Positions 2,933-64,000 of a stretch of DNA of 64,000 bases are shown one piece after another. The DNA is from an uncultured Pelagibacteraceae bacterium (GTDB lineage Bacteria > Pseudomonadota > Alphaproteobacteria > Pelagibacterales > Pelagibacteraceae): the NCBI GenBank assembly GCA_902616645.1, contig CACMTO010000002.1, positions 62,001-126,000 on the forward strand. Reading direction: 5' to 3'. The notes below the pieces were generated by a model, which ran no database searches, was not told where the DNA came from, and saw nothing but the letters and a program-made list of their open reading frames with translations. The position numbers and the translations under genes are program-made. Position 1 is the first letter of the stretch. Each line of letters opens with the position of its first letter.

Positions 2933-3655
2933 TTAGTTTTTATAAAATAATTTCCTAAAAAAAATTGAGATTAATACCAAGCATATAAAAGCTGAGAGAG
3001 GTAGATATATATCTGGGGAAAAAATTATATCGATTATTTTTGGAGCTTCTATATTTTCTTCAATAATTTTCTCTAACCCACTCCCAATTGAAACTGCTAA
3101 AAAAATTTGTGGAATGATTCCTATAAAAGTTGCGAAAAAAAAATTTTTTACTTTAACATTAAACATAGTTGGTAAAAGACAACTTATCTGCCAAGGAATA
3201 CCTCCTATAAATCGATATATCAGTAAATATATAAATTCTGAATTTCTGAATTTTATTTCAAGATTTCCAAATTTATTTAGAAATTTTTCCCTTACAAGAT
3301 CTTTTAAAAAAAAATTACCAAACATGTATAAAAAAGTTGCACCAATGCTTAAACCTAAAACTACAATTAAAGTACCAATCCATTTTCCTAAAATAAATCC
3401 ACCCAAGATAGCAACTGGAGAACCAAAACCTAAAAGTGGAAATACCCATAAGATTGTTAATAATAAAAAAATTGATGATATTAGAATTAAATTTGAATTT
3501 TTAAGACTTAAAAAATATGTCCTGTTCTGTTTTATAAAATCATAGGAAGTTATTTCTTGGATGCTAAATTTTGAAAAAAAGAAATATAGAAAAAGGCCAA
3601 CTACCAACACATAAAATAAACCAATAAATAATTTAATTTTTTTAGCTTTTCTCAT
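2933..3655 (-). CDS. TVP38/TMEM64 (VTT-domain) membrane protein
   Basis: A 240-aa integral membrane protein of the VTT (DedA/TVP38/TMEM64, 'SNARE-associated') superfamily, whose studied members act in lipid scrambling and membrane homeostasis. After an N-terminal membrane segment (about 9-28) comes the core GFGSPVAILGGFILGKWIG, the Gly-rich re-entrant region, and later YRFIGGIPWQISCLLPTMF, the second family hallmark (R-x-x-G-x-x-P-W/F). It is transcribed away from rpmH and directly abuts the downstream 422-aa membrane protein, so the two likely form an operon. Specific substrate unknown. Confidence 0.85.
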   Translation of the reverse strand: MRKAKKIKLFIGLFYVLVVGLFLYFFFSKFSIQEITSYDFIKQNRTYFLSLKNSNLILISSIFLLLTILWVFPLLGFGSPVAILGGFILGKWIGTLIVVLGLSIGATFLYMFGNFFLKDLVREKFLNKFGNLEIKFRNSEFIYLLIYRFIGGIPWQISCLLPTMFNVKVKNFFFATFIGIIPQIFLAVSIGSGLEKIIEENIEAPKIIDIIFSPDIYLPLSAFICLVLISIFFRKLFYKN

Positions 3656-3685
3656 TTATTGTAATCGTAATCATAAATCTTATAT

Positions 3686-3714
3686 TTGCTATTTATATAT
3701 TTAATCACTATAAA
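3686..3714 (+). promoter_or_regulatory. putative rpmH promoter
   Basis: TTGCTA (3686-3691) and TATAAA (3709-3714) are separated by exactly 17 bases. A start site near 3721 would leave a leader of about 25 bases before the rpmH ATG. This fits a strong housekeeping promoter for the rpmH-rnpA-yidD-yidC operon. Confidence 0.6.
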
Positions 3715-3745
3715 GAGCGCAATTTAACAAATTTTTACTACATTT

Positions 3746-3886
3746 ATGAAAAGAACCTATCAACCCTCAAAAATTAAAAGAGCTCGAAAACATGGTTTTA
3801 GATCAAAAATGAAAACTAAGGGTGGAAAAAAACTTTTAGCGAGAAGACGTGCTAGAGGAAGAAAATCTTTAACTGTTTCTGGCTAA
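3746..3886 (+). CDS. rpmH: 50S ribosomal protein L34
   Basis: A 46-aa, highly basic protein beginning [19 protein letters not shown] and ending [13 protein letters not shown], which is unmistakably L34 of the large ribosomal subunit. Length is typical (44-46 aa). It begins a tight plus-strand operon: rnpA starts 4 bases after the stop, the classic rpmH-rnpA arrangement. In many bacteria this block sits near the replication origin, but no dnaA or DnaA-box cluster is visible here. Confidence 0.98.
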
Positions 3887-3890
3887 GTAG

Positions 3891-4232
3891 ATGAGAAGCA
3901 AAATACTGGCTCTTTCAAAGGGTGATGAATTCAAAACTTTGCTTTCAAAAAGAAAAATATCTAACAAATATGTCACAATATTTTTTGGTATTTTAAAAAA
4001 TAAAGATGTTAAGAGATTGAATATTAGCTTTGTCACGAAAAAAAAAATTGGAAATGCTGTAAAAAGAAATAAAATTAAAAGAAGATTAAGAAATATTATT
4101 AATGAAGCAGTAAAACAAATATCTCTCAAATTTAATTATTCATATCTTGTTATTGCAAAGTCTTCCATGTTAGATAATGATTATACTAATATAAAAGAAA
4201 CGTTGTTTCAGGAATTAAAAAAAATTAAATAA
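3891..4232 (+). CDS. rnpA: ribonuclease P protein component
   Basis: Protein subunit of RNase P, which helps the RNA subunit remove tRNA 5' leaders. It has 113 aa, near the usual 110-125. The RNR motif region is visible as KKKIGNAVKRNKIKRRLRN at about 60-78, which contacts the pre-tRNA and P RNA. The start ATG lies 4 bases after the rpmH stop, and the stop overlaps the yidD ATG by one base (TAATG), so translation is coupled along the operon. Confidence 0.96.
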   Translation: MRSKILALSKGDEFKTLLSKRKISNKYVTIFFGILKNKDVKRLNISFVTKKKIGNAVKRNKIKRRLRNIINEAVKQISLKFNYSYLVIAKSSMLDNDYTNIKETLFQELKKIK

Positions 4233-4483
4233 TGAAAATTTTGACTTTAATACTTATTAATCTAATTAAAGGATACAAATATTTGATAAGCCCTTTCTTG
4301 GGAAATTCATGTAGATATTTTCCGTCATGTTCAGAGTATAGTATTGAAGCAATAAAAAAACTCGGTCTATACGGAGGTATATTAAAAAGTTTTAAAAGAA
4401 TATTATCTTGTCATCCAATAAAATTTTTGGGTGGTGGAGAGGGTTTCGACCCAGTAATTAAAAGAACAAAGATTAAAAAATAA
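4232..4483 (+). CDS. yidD: membrane protein insertion efficiency factor YidD
   Basis: A small (83 aa) membrane-associated protein that assists YidC/Sec-dependent insertion of inner-membrane proteins. The family pattern is complete: an N-terminal amphipathic/hydrophobic helix, then Y-x-x-x-I-S-P, then CRYFPSCSEYSIEAI, with a later SCHP motif and GFDPV near the C-terminus. The ends overlap rnpA (one base) and yidC (one base), matching the conserved rnpA-yidD-yidC order. Confidence 0.96.
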   Translation: MKILTLILINLIKGYKYLISPFLGNSCRYFPSCSEYSIEAIKKLGLYGGILKSFKRILSCHPIKFLGGGEGFDPVIKRTKIKK

Positions 4484-58684: not shown

Positions 58685-61165
58685 ATGAAAAAAAATAAAA
58701 TTACAGCAGTTCTAGGTCCTACAAATACTGGGAAAACTCATTTAGCAATTGAAACCATGCTATCTTTTGAAAGTGGAATGATTGGTTTCCCTTTAAGATT
58801 ATTGGCACGGGAAGTTTATGACAAAGTTACAAAAAAATTAGGTCCTGATAAAGTAGCTCTAATTACCGGTGAAGAAAAAATTATTCCTAGTAATTCAAAA
58901 TATTTTTTATGTACAGTAGAGTCGATGCCCATTGATAAACAACTTGAGTTTGTTGGTGTTGATGAAATTCAAATGTGTGCGGATCATGAAAGAGGTCATA
59001 TTTTTACTGATAGATTATTGAATATGAGAGGAAATAAACTAACAATGTGGATGGGATCTAACACTATAAAGAATATTATTTTGAAGCTTGATGATGATAT
59101 TGAGTTCATTAATAGGAATAGGTTATCTAAACTAACTTATGCAGGTCACAAGAAAATATCTAGAATTAGTAGAAAAACAGCAATAATTGCGTTTTCTGCG
59201 GAAGAAGTATATGCAATCGCAGAACTTATCAGAAGACAAAAAGGTGGGGCAGCTATTGTTATGGGGTCTTTGAGTCCAAAAACACGTAATGCTCAAGTTG
59301 ATTTATATCAATCAGGTGATGTTGATTTTTTGGTTGCTACTGATGCAATTGGTATGGGAATAAATATGAATCTTGAGCATGTTTATTTTTCAAATTTAAA
59401 AAAATTCGATGGGAGAAAGTTAAGAAAATTAAATTTATCTGAAATCGGACAAATTGCTGGTAGAGCGGGTAGATATTTAAATGACGGAAGTTTCGGAATA
59501 ACCGGAGAATGTAAAGAGATAAGTTCAGAGGATGTAGAATTACTTGAAAAACATAAATTTGAAGAAATACAATCATTATTTTGGAGAAACTCTAACCTTA
59601 ATTTTGATAATCCATTATCCTTAGTAAAATCTTTAGAAGAAAAGCCTGGTAAATATTGGCTAAGAAAAATTCATGAATGTGAAGACGAAAAAGCTCTCAA
59701 ATTTTTTCTAAGAGAGAAAATTTTTGAAAATATCGAGATTAATAAACAAGAATTAAGTTTATTATGGGAATGTTGTCAGATACCTGATTTTGTAAAAAAG
59801 ACATATGGTAATCATTATGATGTAATAAAAAATGTTTTTAAATTTCTAAATAGCAAAAAAGGTAAAATTACAGAGGACTACATGCATTTTCAACTTATGA
59901 AACTAGATAATTTAGAGGGAAATGTTGATTCTTTGTCAAATAGAATTGCAAATGTTAGAACTTGGTCTTATGTTTCAAATAAAAATAATTGGACAGAAAA
60001 CCAAGATTATTGGATTGAAAAAACGAAATTATTAGAGGATAGGTTGTCAGAAAGACTGCATGAAGAACTTACAAAAACTTTTATTGATAAACGGGCAAGC
60101 GTTCTAGCGAGAGGTTTAAAACAAGATATGGAATTTAAAACTCAGATTTTAGAAAACAATGAGGTTATAATTGATGATCAATTCATAGGAAAAATTAATG
60201 GTTTAAAATTAGAGTTGGATTTGAAAAAAGGCGCACTAGAGACAGATATAAAATCATTAAAAAAAGCTGCAAGACAAACTGTCAGTCCGGAACTAGAAAG
60301 AAGAATTCAAACTATTATAGATACAGGTCAAATTGAGTTAGAGGAAGATTTCAAAATATACTGGAACAAATTTTCAATTGCGAGGCTTATCCCTGGAAAA
60401 GATTACTTAAAACCCAATTTTGAATTAATTGTCGATGATATTATTGAACATAGTCAAAGACAAAAATTAATTAATTTTATTGATAAATGGATTAAAATTA
60501 AAATTGATACAACTTTGAAAAGTCTGATTGATTTGAAATATCTTCAAGAAAAAAATTCATCAATTAAAGCTCTTGCTTACCAGTTATATGAAAGTAATGG
60601 AGTCATTAAAAGAGAACAAGTAACTGAATATCTCAAAGATTTAGGACAAAATGAAAGGAAAATTTTGAGAGGCTTGGGAGTAAAGTTTGGTAGATATCAT
60701 GTATATCTCTATAAACTAATTAAACCAGAAGCAGTTTCGTTAAGAACTTTACTGTGGAAAAACTTTCATCAAAAATTTTTAAATCTGAAGCCACCAACCT
60801 TTGGTTTAAACTTTTTAAATGATATAAAATTCAAGAATAAAAATTTCATGCTTTTATGTGGATTTGAAAAATTTAATAATTTTTTTATAAGGATTGATAT
60901 TCTGGAGAGACTGTTTGTGCTTATAATAAATTCTAAATCTGAGGGAAAAAATGAAATTAAGTTAATACCAGAAATGCTAAATCTTTTGGGTTGTAATAGG
61001 AATGATTTTAAAAAACTTTTAAAAAATATGGGATATAAGATTAAAGAGAAAAATAACGAGGTTTTTTTTCAATATTTGCCATCCAAAAACAAAAGAAAAC
61101 TTATTAATAAAGACTCGGTTAAAGAGAGCCCATTCGGAATTTTGAAAACCCTTAATTTAAATTAA
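58685..61165 (+). CDS. SUV3-like superfamily 2 RNA helicase
   Basis: An 826-aa ATP-dependent helicase of the type that gave rise to the mitochondrial degradosome helicase SUV3. Motif I is GPTNTGKTH at 11-19, motif II DEIQ at 93-96, motif III region MGSNT, then the second RecA domain with TDAIGMGINMNL and QIAGRAGRY (motif VI). A long C-terminal region (about 350-826) includes SUV3-type segments. Alphaproteobacterial copies are usually followed by an S4-domain/ferredoxin/carD block; here terB-like, fdxA and carD follow in tight spacing. Confidence 0.92.
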   Translation: MKKNKITAVLGPTNTGKTHLAIETMLSFESGMIGFPLRLLAREVYDKVTKKLGPDKVALITGEEKIIPSNSKYFLCTVESMPIDKQLEFVGVDEIQMCADHERGHIFTDRLLNMRGNKLTMWMGSNTIKNIILKLDDDIEFINRNRLSKLTYAGHKKISRISRKTAIIAFSAEEVYAIAELIRRQKGGAAIVMGSLSPKTRNAQVDLYQSGDVDFLVATDAIGMGINMNLEHVYFSNLKKFDGRKLRKLNLSEIGQIAGRAGRYLNDGSFGITGECKEISSEDVELLEKHKFEEIQSLFWRNSNLNFDNPLSLVKSLEEKPGKYWLRKIHECEDEKALKFFLREKIFENIEINKQELSLLWECCQIPDFVKKTYGNHYDVIKNVFKFLNSKKGKITEDYMHFQLMKLDNLEGNVDSLSNRIANVRTWSYVSNKNNWTENQDYWIEKTKLLEDRLSERLHEELTKTFIDKRASVLARGLKQDMEFKTQILENNEVIIDDQFIGKINGLKLELDLKKGALETDIKSLKKAARQTVSPELERRIQTIIDTGQIELEEDFKIYWNKFSIARLIPGKDYLKPNFELIVDDIIEHSQRQKLINFIDKWIKIKIDTTLKSLIDLKYLQEKNSSIKALAYQLYESNGVIKREQVTEYLKDLGQNERKILRGLGVKFGRYHVYLYKLIKPEAVSLRTLLWKNFHQKFLNLKPPTFGLNFLNDIKFKNKNFMLLCGFEKFNNFFIRIDILERLFVLIINSKSEGKNEIKLIPEMLNLLGCNRNDFKKLLKNMGYKIKEKNNEVFFQYLPSKNKRKLINKDSVKESPFGILKTLNLN

Positions 61166-61169
61166 ATTT

Positions 61170-61580
61170 ATGTTTTTTAAAAAAAAAGATAATAAAAATA
61201 ATAATGATTTGGTTAAAGTAGCTGCGCTACTTATTCATGCAGCGAAAATTGATGAAGATTATTCCTATCAAGAGGAAAATATTATCAAAAAAGCACTTAT
61301 TAAGTTAGGAGCTAGCAATGAAGAATTGAATGATATATTGTCAGAAGGTAAAAAAGCCGAAACGAATTCAAATCAAATACTAGATTTTACAAAAGAGGTT
61401 AAAAACATGGAACCTCAAAGTAAAGTAAAGATTATAGAAACTTTATGGCAAATTATTTACTCTAACAAAGAAGCAGATATTTATGAGACAAATCTGATGA
61501 GACGACTTGCAGGTTTAATGTATATCGACAATAAAACCATGGGTGATATTAAAGAAAAAATAAAAAAAGAAAATTCATAA
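61170..61580 (+). CDS. TerB-like protein
   Basis: A 136-aa, all-helical protein resembling the TerB family (tellurite-resistance-associated, metal-binding, helix bundle). The typical pattern is visible: [23 protein letters not shown] near the N-terminus and a second similar repeat, [29 protein letters not shown]. Acidic residues in these repeats could bind metal. Many bacteria carry single TerB proteins without tellurite genes. It lies 4 bases after the helicase stop, and its TAATG overlaps fdxA. Confidence 0.84.
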
Positions 61581-61906
61581 TGACTTATTTAGTTAATGAC
61601 AAATGTATAAAGTGTAAACTCATGGATTGTGTAGATGTGTGTCCTGTAGATTGCTTTTATGAAGGAAAAAATATGCTTGTAATTAAACCTGATGAGTGTA
61701 TAGATTGTGGCGTTTGTGAACCAGAATGTCCGGTTGATGCAATAACTGCCGATACAGTACCTGGTAGTGAAAAATGGCTTGAATTAAATAAAAAATATTC
61801 TGATATCTGGCCTAACATAAACGAAAAAAAAGATCCTCCTGAGGATCACGAGAAATTTAGAAATGAGCAAAATAAGTTTGAAAAATATTTTAAAGAAAAC
61901 CTTTAA
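61580..61906 (+). CDS. fdxA: 7Fe ferredoxin (FdxA)
   Basis: A 108-aa low-potential ferredoxin with one [3Fe-4S] and one [4Fe-4S] cluster. Cys9, Cys17 and Cys50 match the 3Fe ligands and Cys21, Cys40, Cys43 and Cys46 the 4Fe ligands of Azotobacter ferredoxin I; Cys12 and Cys25 are additional. The C-terminal extension [17 protein letters not shown] is typical of the FdxA family. The start overlaps the TerB stop by one base. The carD start lies inside its last 44 bases, in another frame. Confidence 0.96.
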
Positions 61907-62741
61907 AAAAAAACCAAAGAATAAAATTAAAAAATCATCAAAAAAAAAAGTCACAAAATCGAAAAAGATAACACTTAAAAAAGTAAAAAAAGTCAGTAAA
62001 CCAAAAATTAAAAAATCCTTAATCAAAATTTCTGAAAAGAAAGTTAAAAAAGGTGTTAATAAACAAGATCCAAAAAAAGAAAATTTAAGGATTTCAAAAA
62101 CAAATGAAGTAAAGCCGGAAATAATTAAAATTAAAAAACAAGGCACTGAAAAAAAAATTTATAAAGTTAAAGATTTTGTTGTTTATCCGAAACACGGTGT
62201 TGGTCAAATTACAGAATTTAAAAAAATAAATATTGGTGGCATTGATGTCGAAACATATATAATTAAGTTTGAAAAAGATAAAGCTAATGGAATGGTTCCA
62301 GTAAATAAACAAGCTAATCTTAGACCTTTGTCAACAATAAACCAAGTGAACAAATGCATATCAATATTAAAAAGTAAACCAAAAATTAAGAGATCTATGT
62401 GGAGTAGGAGAGCTCAGGAATACGAAGCAAAGATATCCTCAGGAAAAGTTTATGAACTTGCCGAAGTTGTAAGAGATCTTAATAAAGGGGATGATATAAT
62501 GGTAGATCAATCATATAGTGAGAGACAATTGTTTGAAAAAGCATATGAAAGAATTCTATCTGAGTTTCAAATTGTTTTAAACAGCACTTTAGAAGAAACT
62601 CAAAAAAAACTTGATAAAGCTCTTAAAAGAAATCTTGAGGGACAAGTTAAAACTCCAACAGAAAACATTAAAACTACTTCAACTAATTTACAGGTTGATG
62701 AAAATGATACTGAAACAACAGTAGAACCAATTGAGGAATAA
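61863..62741 (+). CDS. carD: CarD-family transcription regulator with Lys-rich N-terminal extension
   Basis: RNA-polymerase-binding CarD/CdnL protein, which stabilises open promoter complexes. The CarD interaction domain starts at about residue 89 ([18 protein letters not shown]), followed by the helical DNA-contacting half (about 155-240) and an acidic tail. The first 90 residues contain about 36 lysines, resembling histone H1 tails, and would bind DNA non-specifically. The ATG at 61863 is the only usable start: the next in-frame Met is inside the CarD domain. The gene ends at a strong hairpin terminator. Confidence 0.92.
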
Positions 62742-62742
62742 A

Positions 62743-62784
62743 AAAAACGCCTCTCACACGTATATCGTTATGAGAAGCGTTTTT
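62743..62784. terminator. bidirectional intrinsic terminator
   Basis: AAAAACGC (62743-62750) and TCTCA pair with TGAGA and GCGTTTTT (62777-62784) around a 14-base loop and one internal mismatch (C/A). The A-tract on one side and T-tract on the other make it functional in both directions. It lies 1 base after carD and 19 bases after the stop of the opposing tiny gene, so it serves both. It is the clearest terminator in the window. Confidence 0.85.
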
Positions 62785-62803
62785 AATAAAGAATACTAAG
62801 ATA

Positions 62804-62881
62804 CTATCTTCTTCTTCTTCTTTTTTTAGCCTTCTTAGCTTTCTTTTTAGCTTTTTTAGCTTTTTTTCTTCTTTTAGCCAT
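62804..62881 (-). CDS. 25-aa Lys/Arg/Ala-only basic protein
   Basis: Below the usual ORF cutoffs. Apart from the initial Met the product contains only Ala, Lys and Arg: MAKRRKKAKKAKK..., ending in five arginines, with a KKA repeat. Support for a real gene is strong. It has GGGAG six bases before the ATG, a good Shine-Dalgarno in a genome where these are rare; a TTGACA -35 about 75 bases upstream; a hairpin-capable leader; and a terminator just past the stop. The composition resembles histone H1 tails or the tiniest ribosomal proteins. It may bind DNA or RNA; that is inference. It is tail-to-tail with carD. Confidence 0.72.
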   Translation of the reverse strand: MAKRRKKAKKAKKKAKKAKKRRRRR

Positions 62882-62902
62882 CTTTAGCTCCCTTTTAAGT
62901 TA

Positions 62903-62923
62903 AACGAATCAAAATGATTCGTT
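62903..62923 (-). promoter_or_regulatory. perfect inverted repeat in the leader of the tiny basic gene
   Basis: AACGAATCA and TGATTCGTT flank three A bases (plus-strand reading). On the minus strand it lies 21-42 bases upstream of the ATG, just after the predicted start of transcription. It could be a 5' stabilising hairpin in the mRNA or an operator for a dimeric regulator. Confidence 0.55.
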
Positions 62924-62932
62924 ATTAGTCTA

Positions 62933-62961
62933 TTTTTATTTTTTTATACACGTTATGTCAA
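62933..62961 (-). promoter_or_regulatory. putative strong promoter of the tiny basic gene
   Basis: Minus strand: consensus TTGACA (62961-62956), 17-base spacer, then TAAAAA (62938-62933). The start site would be near 62926, immediately before the inverted repeat. From here to the acyl-CoA synthetase stop at 63080 the sequence is AT-rich, and I see nothing else in it. Confidence 0.55.
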
Positions 62962-63079
62962 TTATTTAATTAAAGTTAAAAAGTTTCATTAAAAATTTTT
63001 AATTAAAAAAAAATTAAAATTATTTTTATGTGCTAAAAGTTAATGTTTACGCGCTTTATAATCCAATTTTTAAACAATA

Positions 63080-64000
63080 TTAATAAAGTTTTTCTAAATC
63101 TTGTTTAAAATTTTCTAAAATTTTTTTTCTTTTTAATTTTAACGTTGGTGTTAACATTCCATTTTCAATTGTAAATTCTTGTTTAATTAGTTTAAATTTT
63201 TTAATTTTTTCTATAATTTGCAAATTATTATTTAAATTTTCAATATAAAGTTGAATTTCTTTTTCATTTTTAAATGAGTCAGTAACAATTAATGCTACCA
63301 AGTAAGTTTTTTTATCTCCATAAACAAAACTTTGTTTAATTTTTTCATTCAGACATAATAAGTTTTCAATTTTAGTAGGTGAAATGTTGTCACCACCTAG
63401 ATTAACTATTATCTCTTTTTTTCTATCAGTTATCTTTAAATTACCTTCTTTAGTAATCTCACCAATATCACCTGTATGTAACCAACCATCTTTTAAAATC
63501 TCATCTGTTTCTTTTTTCATATTCCAATAACCAAGCATAACATTTTCACCTTTAACTAAAATTTCCCCATCCTGCGCGATCTTTACTTGATTTGTTTTGA
63601 AAGGGGGTCCTACAGTCTCAATCATAATTTTTTCAGGAATATTGCAGCTTACTACAGGAGAGGCCTCTGTAAGACCATATCCTTGTAAGGTTGGTAATCC
63701 TATAGAGTTTAAAAATTCTCCAATTTTTCGATCTAAGGCTCCTCCTCCAGATACAAAAGCTCTCAAATTTCCACCAAATTGGTTTTTAACTTTTCTTCTC
63801 ACTAATTTTTCACAGAAAAAATTTATAATTTTTTCTGTGAAACTAAGATTTTCACTATTCATTTTTTTTATCCCTAGTGAGATAGTTGATGATATAAGTT
63901 TTTTCTTAAATCCTGTTTGTTTGGAAAAATTCATCGAAATTTTACTATATAAATTTTGATAAAATCTGGGTACAGCAGTCATTATAGATGGTTTAGCAAC
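63080..64000 (-). CDS. long-chain acyl-CoA synthetase, C-terminal part
   Basis: AMP-forming ligase of the FadD15/long-chain type that activates fatty acids to acyl-CoA. The frame is open to the window edge (it reads VAKPSI before the first Met at 63982), so the N-terminal half is outside. Visible motifs are AVPRFYQNLYSKI, the adenylation motif GYGLTEASPVVS, GWLHTGDIGEI (Asp binding the ribose) and DRKKEIIVNLGGDNISP, then the C-terminal lid ending shortly after the catalytic-Lys region. It is followed by a 198-base gap and the tiny basic gene on the same strand. Confidence 0.92.
   Translation of the reverse strand, partial: VAKPSIMTAVPRFYQNLYSKISMNFSKQTGFKKKLISSTISLGIKKMNSENLSFTEKIINFFCEKLVRRKVKNQFGGNLRAFVSGGGALDRKIGEFLNSIGLPTLQGYGLTEASPVVSCNIPEKIMIETVGPPFKTNQVKIAQDGEILVKGENVMLGYWNMKKETDEILKDGWLHTGDIGEITKEGNLKITDRKKEIIVNLGGDNISPTKIENLLCLNEKIKQSFVYGDKKTYLVALIVTDSFKNEKEIQLYIENLNNNLQIIEKIKKFKLIKQEFTIENGMLTPTLKLKRKKILENFKQDLEKLY

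Follow-up and report, generated by a model that had tools for sequence, protein, structure and literature searches.

The window, i.e. the whole stretch of 64,000 nucleotides analyzed here from an uncultured Pelagibacteraceae bacterium, carries next to carD a tiny gene encoding the 25-residue peptide MAKRRKKAKKAKKKAKKAKKRRRRR (Table 1). Judging from the comparison of sequences, this is a real, conserved coding gene in SAR11 with a strong-looking leader, and we are inclined to regard its product as a miniature H1-tail-like protein binding nucleic acids, probably in the nucleoid. Lys and Arg account for 19 of the 25 residues, and five Ala and the start Met make up the rest. The first-pass annotation had described a peptide made only of Ala, Lys and Arg, which holds after the Met when the frame is read directly; the TTGACA box, the perfect 9-bp hairpin at the 5′ end of the message, the GGGAG six bases from the ATG and the terminator which it had listed are likewise all present in the sequence. 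Among the 1099 start-codon ORFs of 20–99 aa in the window (a count which includes nested starts), this is the only one in which K+R reaches at least 0.6. A loose peptide search detected a single copy of the peptide in the window's own genome.

Table 1. Positions of the small gene, its signals and the neighboring carD gene in the window.
Feature	Position	Strand	Basis or remark
-35 box, TTGACA	62956..62961	minus	sequence and relatives
Possible -10 box, TAAAAA (weak; 17-base spacer)	62933..62938	minus	sequence, putative
Perfect 9-bp leader hairpin, AACGAATCA-TTT-TGATTCGTT	62903..62923	minus	sequence, fold and relatives
Ribosome-binding site, GGGAG, 6 bases 5′ of ATG	62888..62892	minus	sequence and relatives
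Coding sequence, 25 aa, ATG to TAG	62804..62881	minus	read directly; orthologs
Terminator stem and T run between the small gene and carD	62740..62784	minus	8 T; 5 T on the carD strand
carD/cdnL, 292 aa, convergent neighbor (anchor, not part of the gene)	61863..62741	plus	Pfam CarD_TRCF_RID, CarD_C

Conservation and coding constraint

Genomes were scanned with a CarD alignment, and the best 80 of at least 576 stretches were taken; these 80 are assigned to the Pelagibacteraceae, Candidatus Pelagibacter, Pelagibacterales or SAR11. A small gene facing carD was complete in 79 of these best 80 loci, and the contig of the 80th (L188) ends within it. None of the 79 complete copies has lost the start codon, the ribosome site or the frame, a loss which the first-pass annotation had named among the observations that would speak against the gene; the ribosome site was counted as present in all 79, GG[AG] alone being required. 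In 78 of the 79 complete loci, the small gene and carD have their stop codons 25–74 bases apart. The exception is L137, from Candidatus Pelagibacter ubique: it has retained the small gene, but with an additional ORF of some 224 codons (at about 3621–4456) between this gene and carD, and the distance from stop to stop is 835 bases.

When 61 genomes of the genus were searched at the DNA level, the place was located in 49 of them (at least three being cut by contig ends), and no clear match was obtained at this place in the other 12, which are at most 83% complete. When the peptide was used as the query, the gene was found in only nine of the 61 genomes, far fewer than by DNA, and protein searches with a low-complexity query of the MAKRRKKAKKAKKKAKKAKKRRRRR type therefore say little. 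Among 385 genomes of the class, five matched a DNA pattern for the start of the peptide: two of the three genus members (the start of the third does not fit the pattern), both members of the sister genus, and an unrelated genome, in which a 37-aa ORF (MPKRRHKAKAAAPS...) was judged to be a chance match. The exact pattern of the leader start, GGGAGCTAAAGATGSC, was found in three of the 385, all belonging to the window's genus, and the genus's exact leader pattern GGGAGCTAAAGATGSCNAAR was found in none of the viral contigs searched.

After all loci had been pooled and duplicates, defined as identical leader-plus-CDS pairs, removed, the set comprised 115 distinct loci, 82 coding sequences and 56 peptides. 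Since these loci were selected by their composition, start and GGGAG, the constancy of those letters is by construction. The 56 peptides are 20–41 aa long, with a K+R content of 69–83%, and only K, R, A, T, P, G, and S occur after the Met; the differences in length consist of KKA/KKKA units and the Arg-rich end. The sister genus within the window's own family, represented by two genomes, has forms of 36 and 38 aa. Composition, frame and leader are kept across the 115 loci while the length drifts, and the earlier claim of a genuine conserved coding gene is borne out by this set. The comparison of synonymous and nonsynonymous changes that had been proposed as a check points the same way: across 28 disjoint closest pairs of equal length, 381 synonymous sites carry 47.5 changes and 1671 nonsynonymous sites carry 25.5, so that synonymous changes dominate, with a pN/pS of about 0.12. 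The ratio is 0.26 when only transitions are counted, which allows for the A-G changes in Lys and Arg codons (31 synonymous and 16 nonsynonymous changes on 684 and 1368 sites, p = 6e-6).

The gene is, as far as can be read from the sequences, found throughout the order as sampled. Twelve carD loci outside the order, searched over 1.5 kb with a composition filter, yielded no similar gene beside carD; they came from 15 mostly small, hand-picked genomes, three of which gave no carD match, and some of their flanks are cut by contig ends. A single short ORF passed the filter in L100 and another in L103, and neither resembles the small gene. Homologs may possibly exist outside the order, at other places and with other starts.

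Leader and 3′ side of the gene

The promoter box and a second element, CGAATCA, are shared by nearly all the relatives. In the window's family, 112 leaders are at least 100 nt long; of these, 110 have TTGACA and 111 have CGAATCA, and the two elements are 39–41 bases apart in 109 of the 111 leaders in which this distance could be measured. The last 60 nt of 123 leaders (114 from the window's family and nine from a sister family of the order) were scanned for stems with loops of 3–8 nt: the longest perfect stem was at least 6 bp in 113 of the 123, vs. 53 of 369 shuffled sequences, and GAATC occupies the 5′ arm in 103 of the 123. Base pairs were counted in the 109 of the 115 loci which fit GAATC...GATT[CT], letters which are therefore constant by construction. 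Among these 109 leaders, G-U variants occur at two pairs (in 40 and 12 cases), the outermost of the eight dyad pairs is unpaired in 41, and the length of the loop varies among relatives. In L085, L086, and L110, the 3′ arm has been replaced and a hairpin of 8–9 bp rebuilt from the ATCA of the CGAATCA element, the CGAATCA arm being kept even in the rebuilt hairpins of L085 and L086.

Because of the G-U variants and the varying loop length, the dyad fits an RNA structure better than a DNA operator, and the leader data would agree with a 5′-terminal stabilizing hairpin. Since the outermost pair is unpaired in 41 of 109 leaders and the arm is kept when the hairpin is rebuilt, the CGAATCA arm may still have a role at the DNA level as well. 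GAATC and GATTC also form two inverted GANTC sites (62906–62920), a few bases past the likely transcription start and inside the hairpin; GAATC is present in 112 of 112 leaders and in nine of nine of the sister family, and the second GANTC site has been lost in some of them. A GcrA gene is present in the genome, and no N6_N4_Mtase (CcrM-type) gene was found in it (the assembly is 89% complete). PF18284, which we took to be the CcrM domain, gave no match here and matched E. coli alone among the controls; it is probably the wrong family.

The terminator stem starts some 20 bases past the stop codon and is common to the small gene and carD. At least six pairs form within the 62-nt tail in the minimum free energy folds of the representatives of all 56 distinct peptides. 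The outer ACGC/GCGT and the stem are kept, and the inner sequence differs by subclade. Pairing between the CDS and the 3′ UTR, present in 54 of the 56 folds, was rejected as a feature, since a purine-rich CDS pairs with any U-rich tail.

The Rfam search of the whole window at gathering scores returned three tRNAs only. The Rfam rhtB element (RF01814) was present in five of the five loci searched, at L043:988–1070 and at the matching places of L044–L047. On the strand opposite to that of the Rfam annotation, these loci carry a hairpin, GATAGTCCTT...AAGGACTATC, whose loop contains CCGGGAGCTAAAGATGGCTAAG, upstream of an ORF on the same strand; CCGGGAGCTAAAGATGGCTAAG is the same ribosome-site-plus-start string as in the small gene. 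Perhaps rhtB is annotated on the wrong strand, or else the ORF of these loci may have an RNA signal in common with the small gene. The SAR11_0636 RNA element, as described in the accessible part of PMC2704228, has other neighbors and was dropped.

Long counterpart and known basic proteins

In the sister family, which covers three genera, nine of ten carD loci carry at the same convergent place a complete protein of 76–99 aa, and the tenth (L092) is cut inside it. This protein starts with ME(E/D)LK, continues with ..AKKKAAPKKK.. and contains AAPKKK and KKKAA repeats; in its sequence it resembles the tail of a histone H1. Its leader shares the promoter box and the dyad with that of the small gene, TTGACA and CGAATCA being present in nine of nine cases, 39–40 bases apart. 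The long form is linked to the 25-aa gene by place and leader, the start being different (MEELK) and the sequences not alignable. A profile of the long form matched none of 190 genomes, a set which included no positive control. Either form, the short one or that of 76–99 aa, may be the older, as the composition filter showed no similar gene at the 12 carD loci outside the order.

The histone H1-like proteins of bacteria (Hc1 and Hc2 of Chlamydia, BpH1 of Bordetella, and AlgP) are likewise low-complexity, Lys/Ala-rich and highly positive chains varying in length by repeat units; the sister-family form shares with them its AAPKKK repeats. The length of Hc2 varies by Lys-rich repeat units between 165 and 237 aa (PMC2848022, as far as the accessible text goes), compared with 20–41 aa in the window's family and 99 aa in the longest form found. 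The present proteins differ from the H1-like ones in their Arg-rich end, in their KKA/KKKA units, which are not pentamers, and in giving no Pfam match. With 25 aa in the window and 99 aa at most, these proteins do not reach the size of Hc1 and Hc2 and are too short for an N-terminal dimerization domain of the Hc1 type. Protamines are very short, very basic proteins with an Arg run and are dominated by Arg; the small protein is similar to them in size, basicity and its Arg run, but it is dominated by Lys and bacterial, and no homology is claimed.

The antimicrobial peptide MR-22 (MAKRRKKAKKKAKKAKKRRRRR-NH2), a synthetic peptide screened from UniProt, inhibits E. coli at 4–32 ug/mL (PMC10847306), and in the accessible part of that paper it is treated as a synthetic, amidated drug candidate without gene context. 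Five of the loci analyzed here (L039, L050, L054, L058, and L172) encode MAKRRKKAKKKAKKKAKKRRRRR, which is one Lys longer than MR-22. These loci suggest where MR-22 comes from: its source was very probably a UniProt entry from SAR11 (the accessible part of PMC10847306 names no organism of origin), and at least one relative of the gene is probably already a UniProt entry. Apart from this one sequence match, the literature searched yielded nothing on a SAR11 gene of this kind.

Possible roles of the peptide

The composition, the length changes driven by repeats and the H1-tail-like long form suggest that the protein binds nucleic acids through its charge, the nucleoid being the simplest place for this. 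In its action, the Lys/Arg miniprotein would correspond to the C-terminal tail of histone H1-like proteins. It would be disordered and usually end in the Arg-rich run, its KKA/KKKA units could fold into a helix that has the alanines on one side, and through its charge it would bind DNA, and probably also RNA, and so help to compact the nucleoid in a cell of very small size. The 5′ hairpin and the good ribosome site would probably make the mRNA stable and its translation high, and we infer that the gene is highly expressed. After residue 5, successive residues other than Lys and Arg show a spacing of 3 or 4 positions in 152 of the 206 gaps, and a spacing of 2 does not occur; taken as a description, this would set the alanines roughly on one helix face. 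The periodicity of Ala is 0.665 and 0.662 at 90–95 degrees, which is higher than the 0.608 obtained at the helical 100 degrees, where shuffled sequences had a mean of 0.388 and a maximum of 0.461 (the peptides are related and therefore non-independent). The genome has three HU/IHF-type genes and is thus not short of nucleoid proteins, which speaks somewhat against this reading; the peptide would add to these proteins and not replace them. Pfam and NCBIfam gave no relevant match for the 25-, 36-, 85-, and 99-aa forms, which is a weak test in the case of low-complexity chains. Of the functions suggested in the first-pass annotation, that of a nucleoid or charge-neutralizing peptide is favored by the form found in the sister family, and those of a ribosome component or RNA chaperone stay as rivals.

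The main rival, which we consider rather improbable, is that the peptide threads into rRNA or serves as a general RNA chaperone. The peptides eL41 and bTHX, tiny and basic, thread into rRNA, and they have in common with the present one a length of about 25 residues and a composition which is largely Lys and Arg. Size, charge and the strong-looking leader would fit such a role, the Arg run suits RNA binding, and RNA binding has been reported for Hc2 as well (PMC2848022, accessible part). However, in contrast to eL41 and bTHX, the peptide drifts by repeat units, and a drift between 20 and 41 aa together with an AAPKKK counterpart of 76–99 aa is unlike a peptide fitted to a fixed groove in rRNA; the solved chains in the PDB gave no match to the 25-mer at E ≤ 10 (a weak test for so short a query), and the 85-aa form matches ribosomal L29 only weakly (E = 0.52). 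That the RNA itself is the product, the ORF being incidental, is extremely improbable: the 5′ hairpin is conserved, there is a terminator, and when hairpin, CDS and most of the terminator are folded together, z is -4.5 against 200 shuffles, but the frame survives large changes in length, synonymous changes dominate and the composition of the product is kept. Many cationic peptides kill bacteria if added from outside, and a secreted antimicrobial peptide might be proposed in view of the near identity with MR-22 and its effect on E. coli. We regard this as very unlikely, since the 25 residues include no secretion leader, no export or immunity gene was recognized by eye among the ORFs at 60000–64000 (the neighbors there are a ferredoxin, an AMP-ligase-like ORF, identified by eye, and carD, identified by Pfam), the presence in nearly all the loci examined is housekeeping-like, and the activity of MR-22 falls with Na+ (PMC10847306, accessible part), which is a poor fit to seawater.

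The neighboring CarD bears on another alternative. The CarD of the window has an N-terminal extension of 99 residues, including 41 K/R and 6 D/E, and an acidic C-terminal tail of 36 residues with 9 D/E and 2 K/R. A Lys-rich stretch was also seen in the one CarD read from the sister genus and in the sister-family CarD proteins that were read (nine of the ten loci); eight CarD proteins read outside the order are 163–182 aa long without such an extension, and the other four loci there have open frames of 169–213 aa. The small protein might be a trans-acting partner of CarD and RNA polymerase; as a basic tail of its own, it would either cooperate or compete with the Lys-rich extension, in line with its near-constant adjacency to carD genes which, in those members of the order that were read, encode this extension. 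The CarD of Myxococcus works when its HMGA-like tail is swapped for histone H1 or for the H1 C-terminal region (PMC8156234, accessible part). We find this role unlikely: the genes are convergent, each with its own promoter, simple synteny could account for the adjacency, and at L137 the small gene is kept with another gene intervening. Two basic chains side by side are suggestive of a shared pathway, without being evidence of one. It is decidedly doubtful that this is a mini-histone, a 20–40-residue, Arg-ended poly-KKA chain made from a fixed cassette of promoter and hairpin, whose synthesis is tied to replication through GAATC and GcrA and which shares the coating of the DNA with the CarD extension.

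Coming back to the gene as such, it is overlooked by gene annotation, neither Pfam nor NCBIfam offers a family model for its product, and a chain consisting only of Lys and Arg would be cut into fragments too small for ordinary tryptic proteomics. Few cells on Earth are as numerous as the SAR11 bacteria, which also have some of the smallest free-living genomes, and yet nearly all the loci examined have retained this tiny protein. If it does act in the nucleoid, we know of no smaller histone-tail-like protein, and it would provide a handle on the neutralization of DNA in minimal cells.
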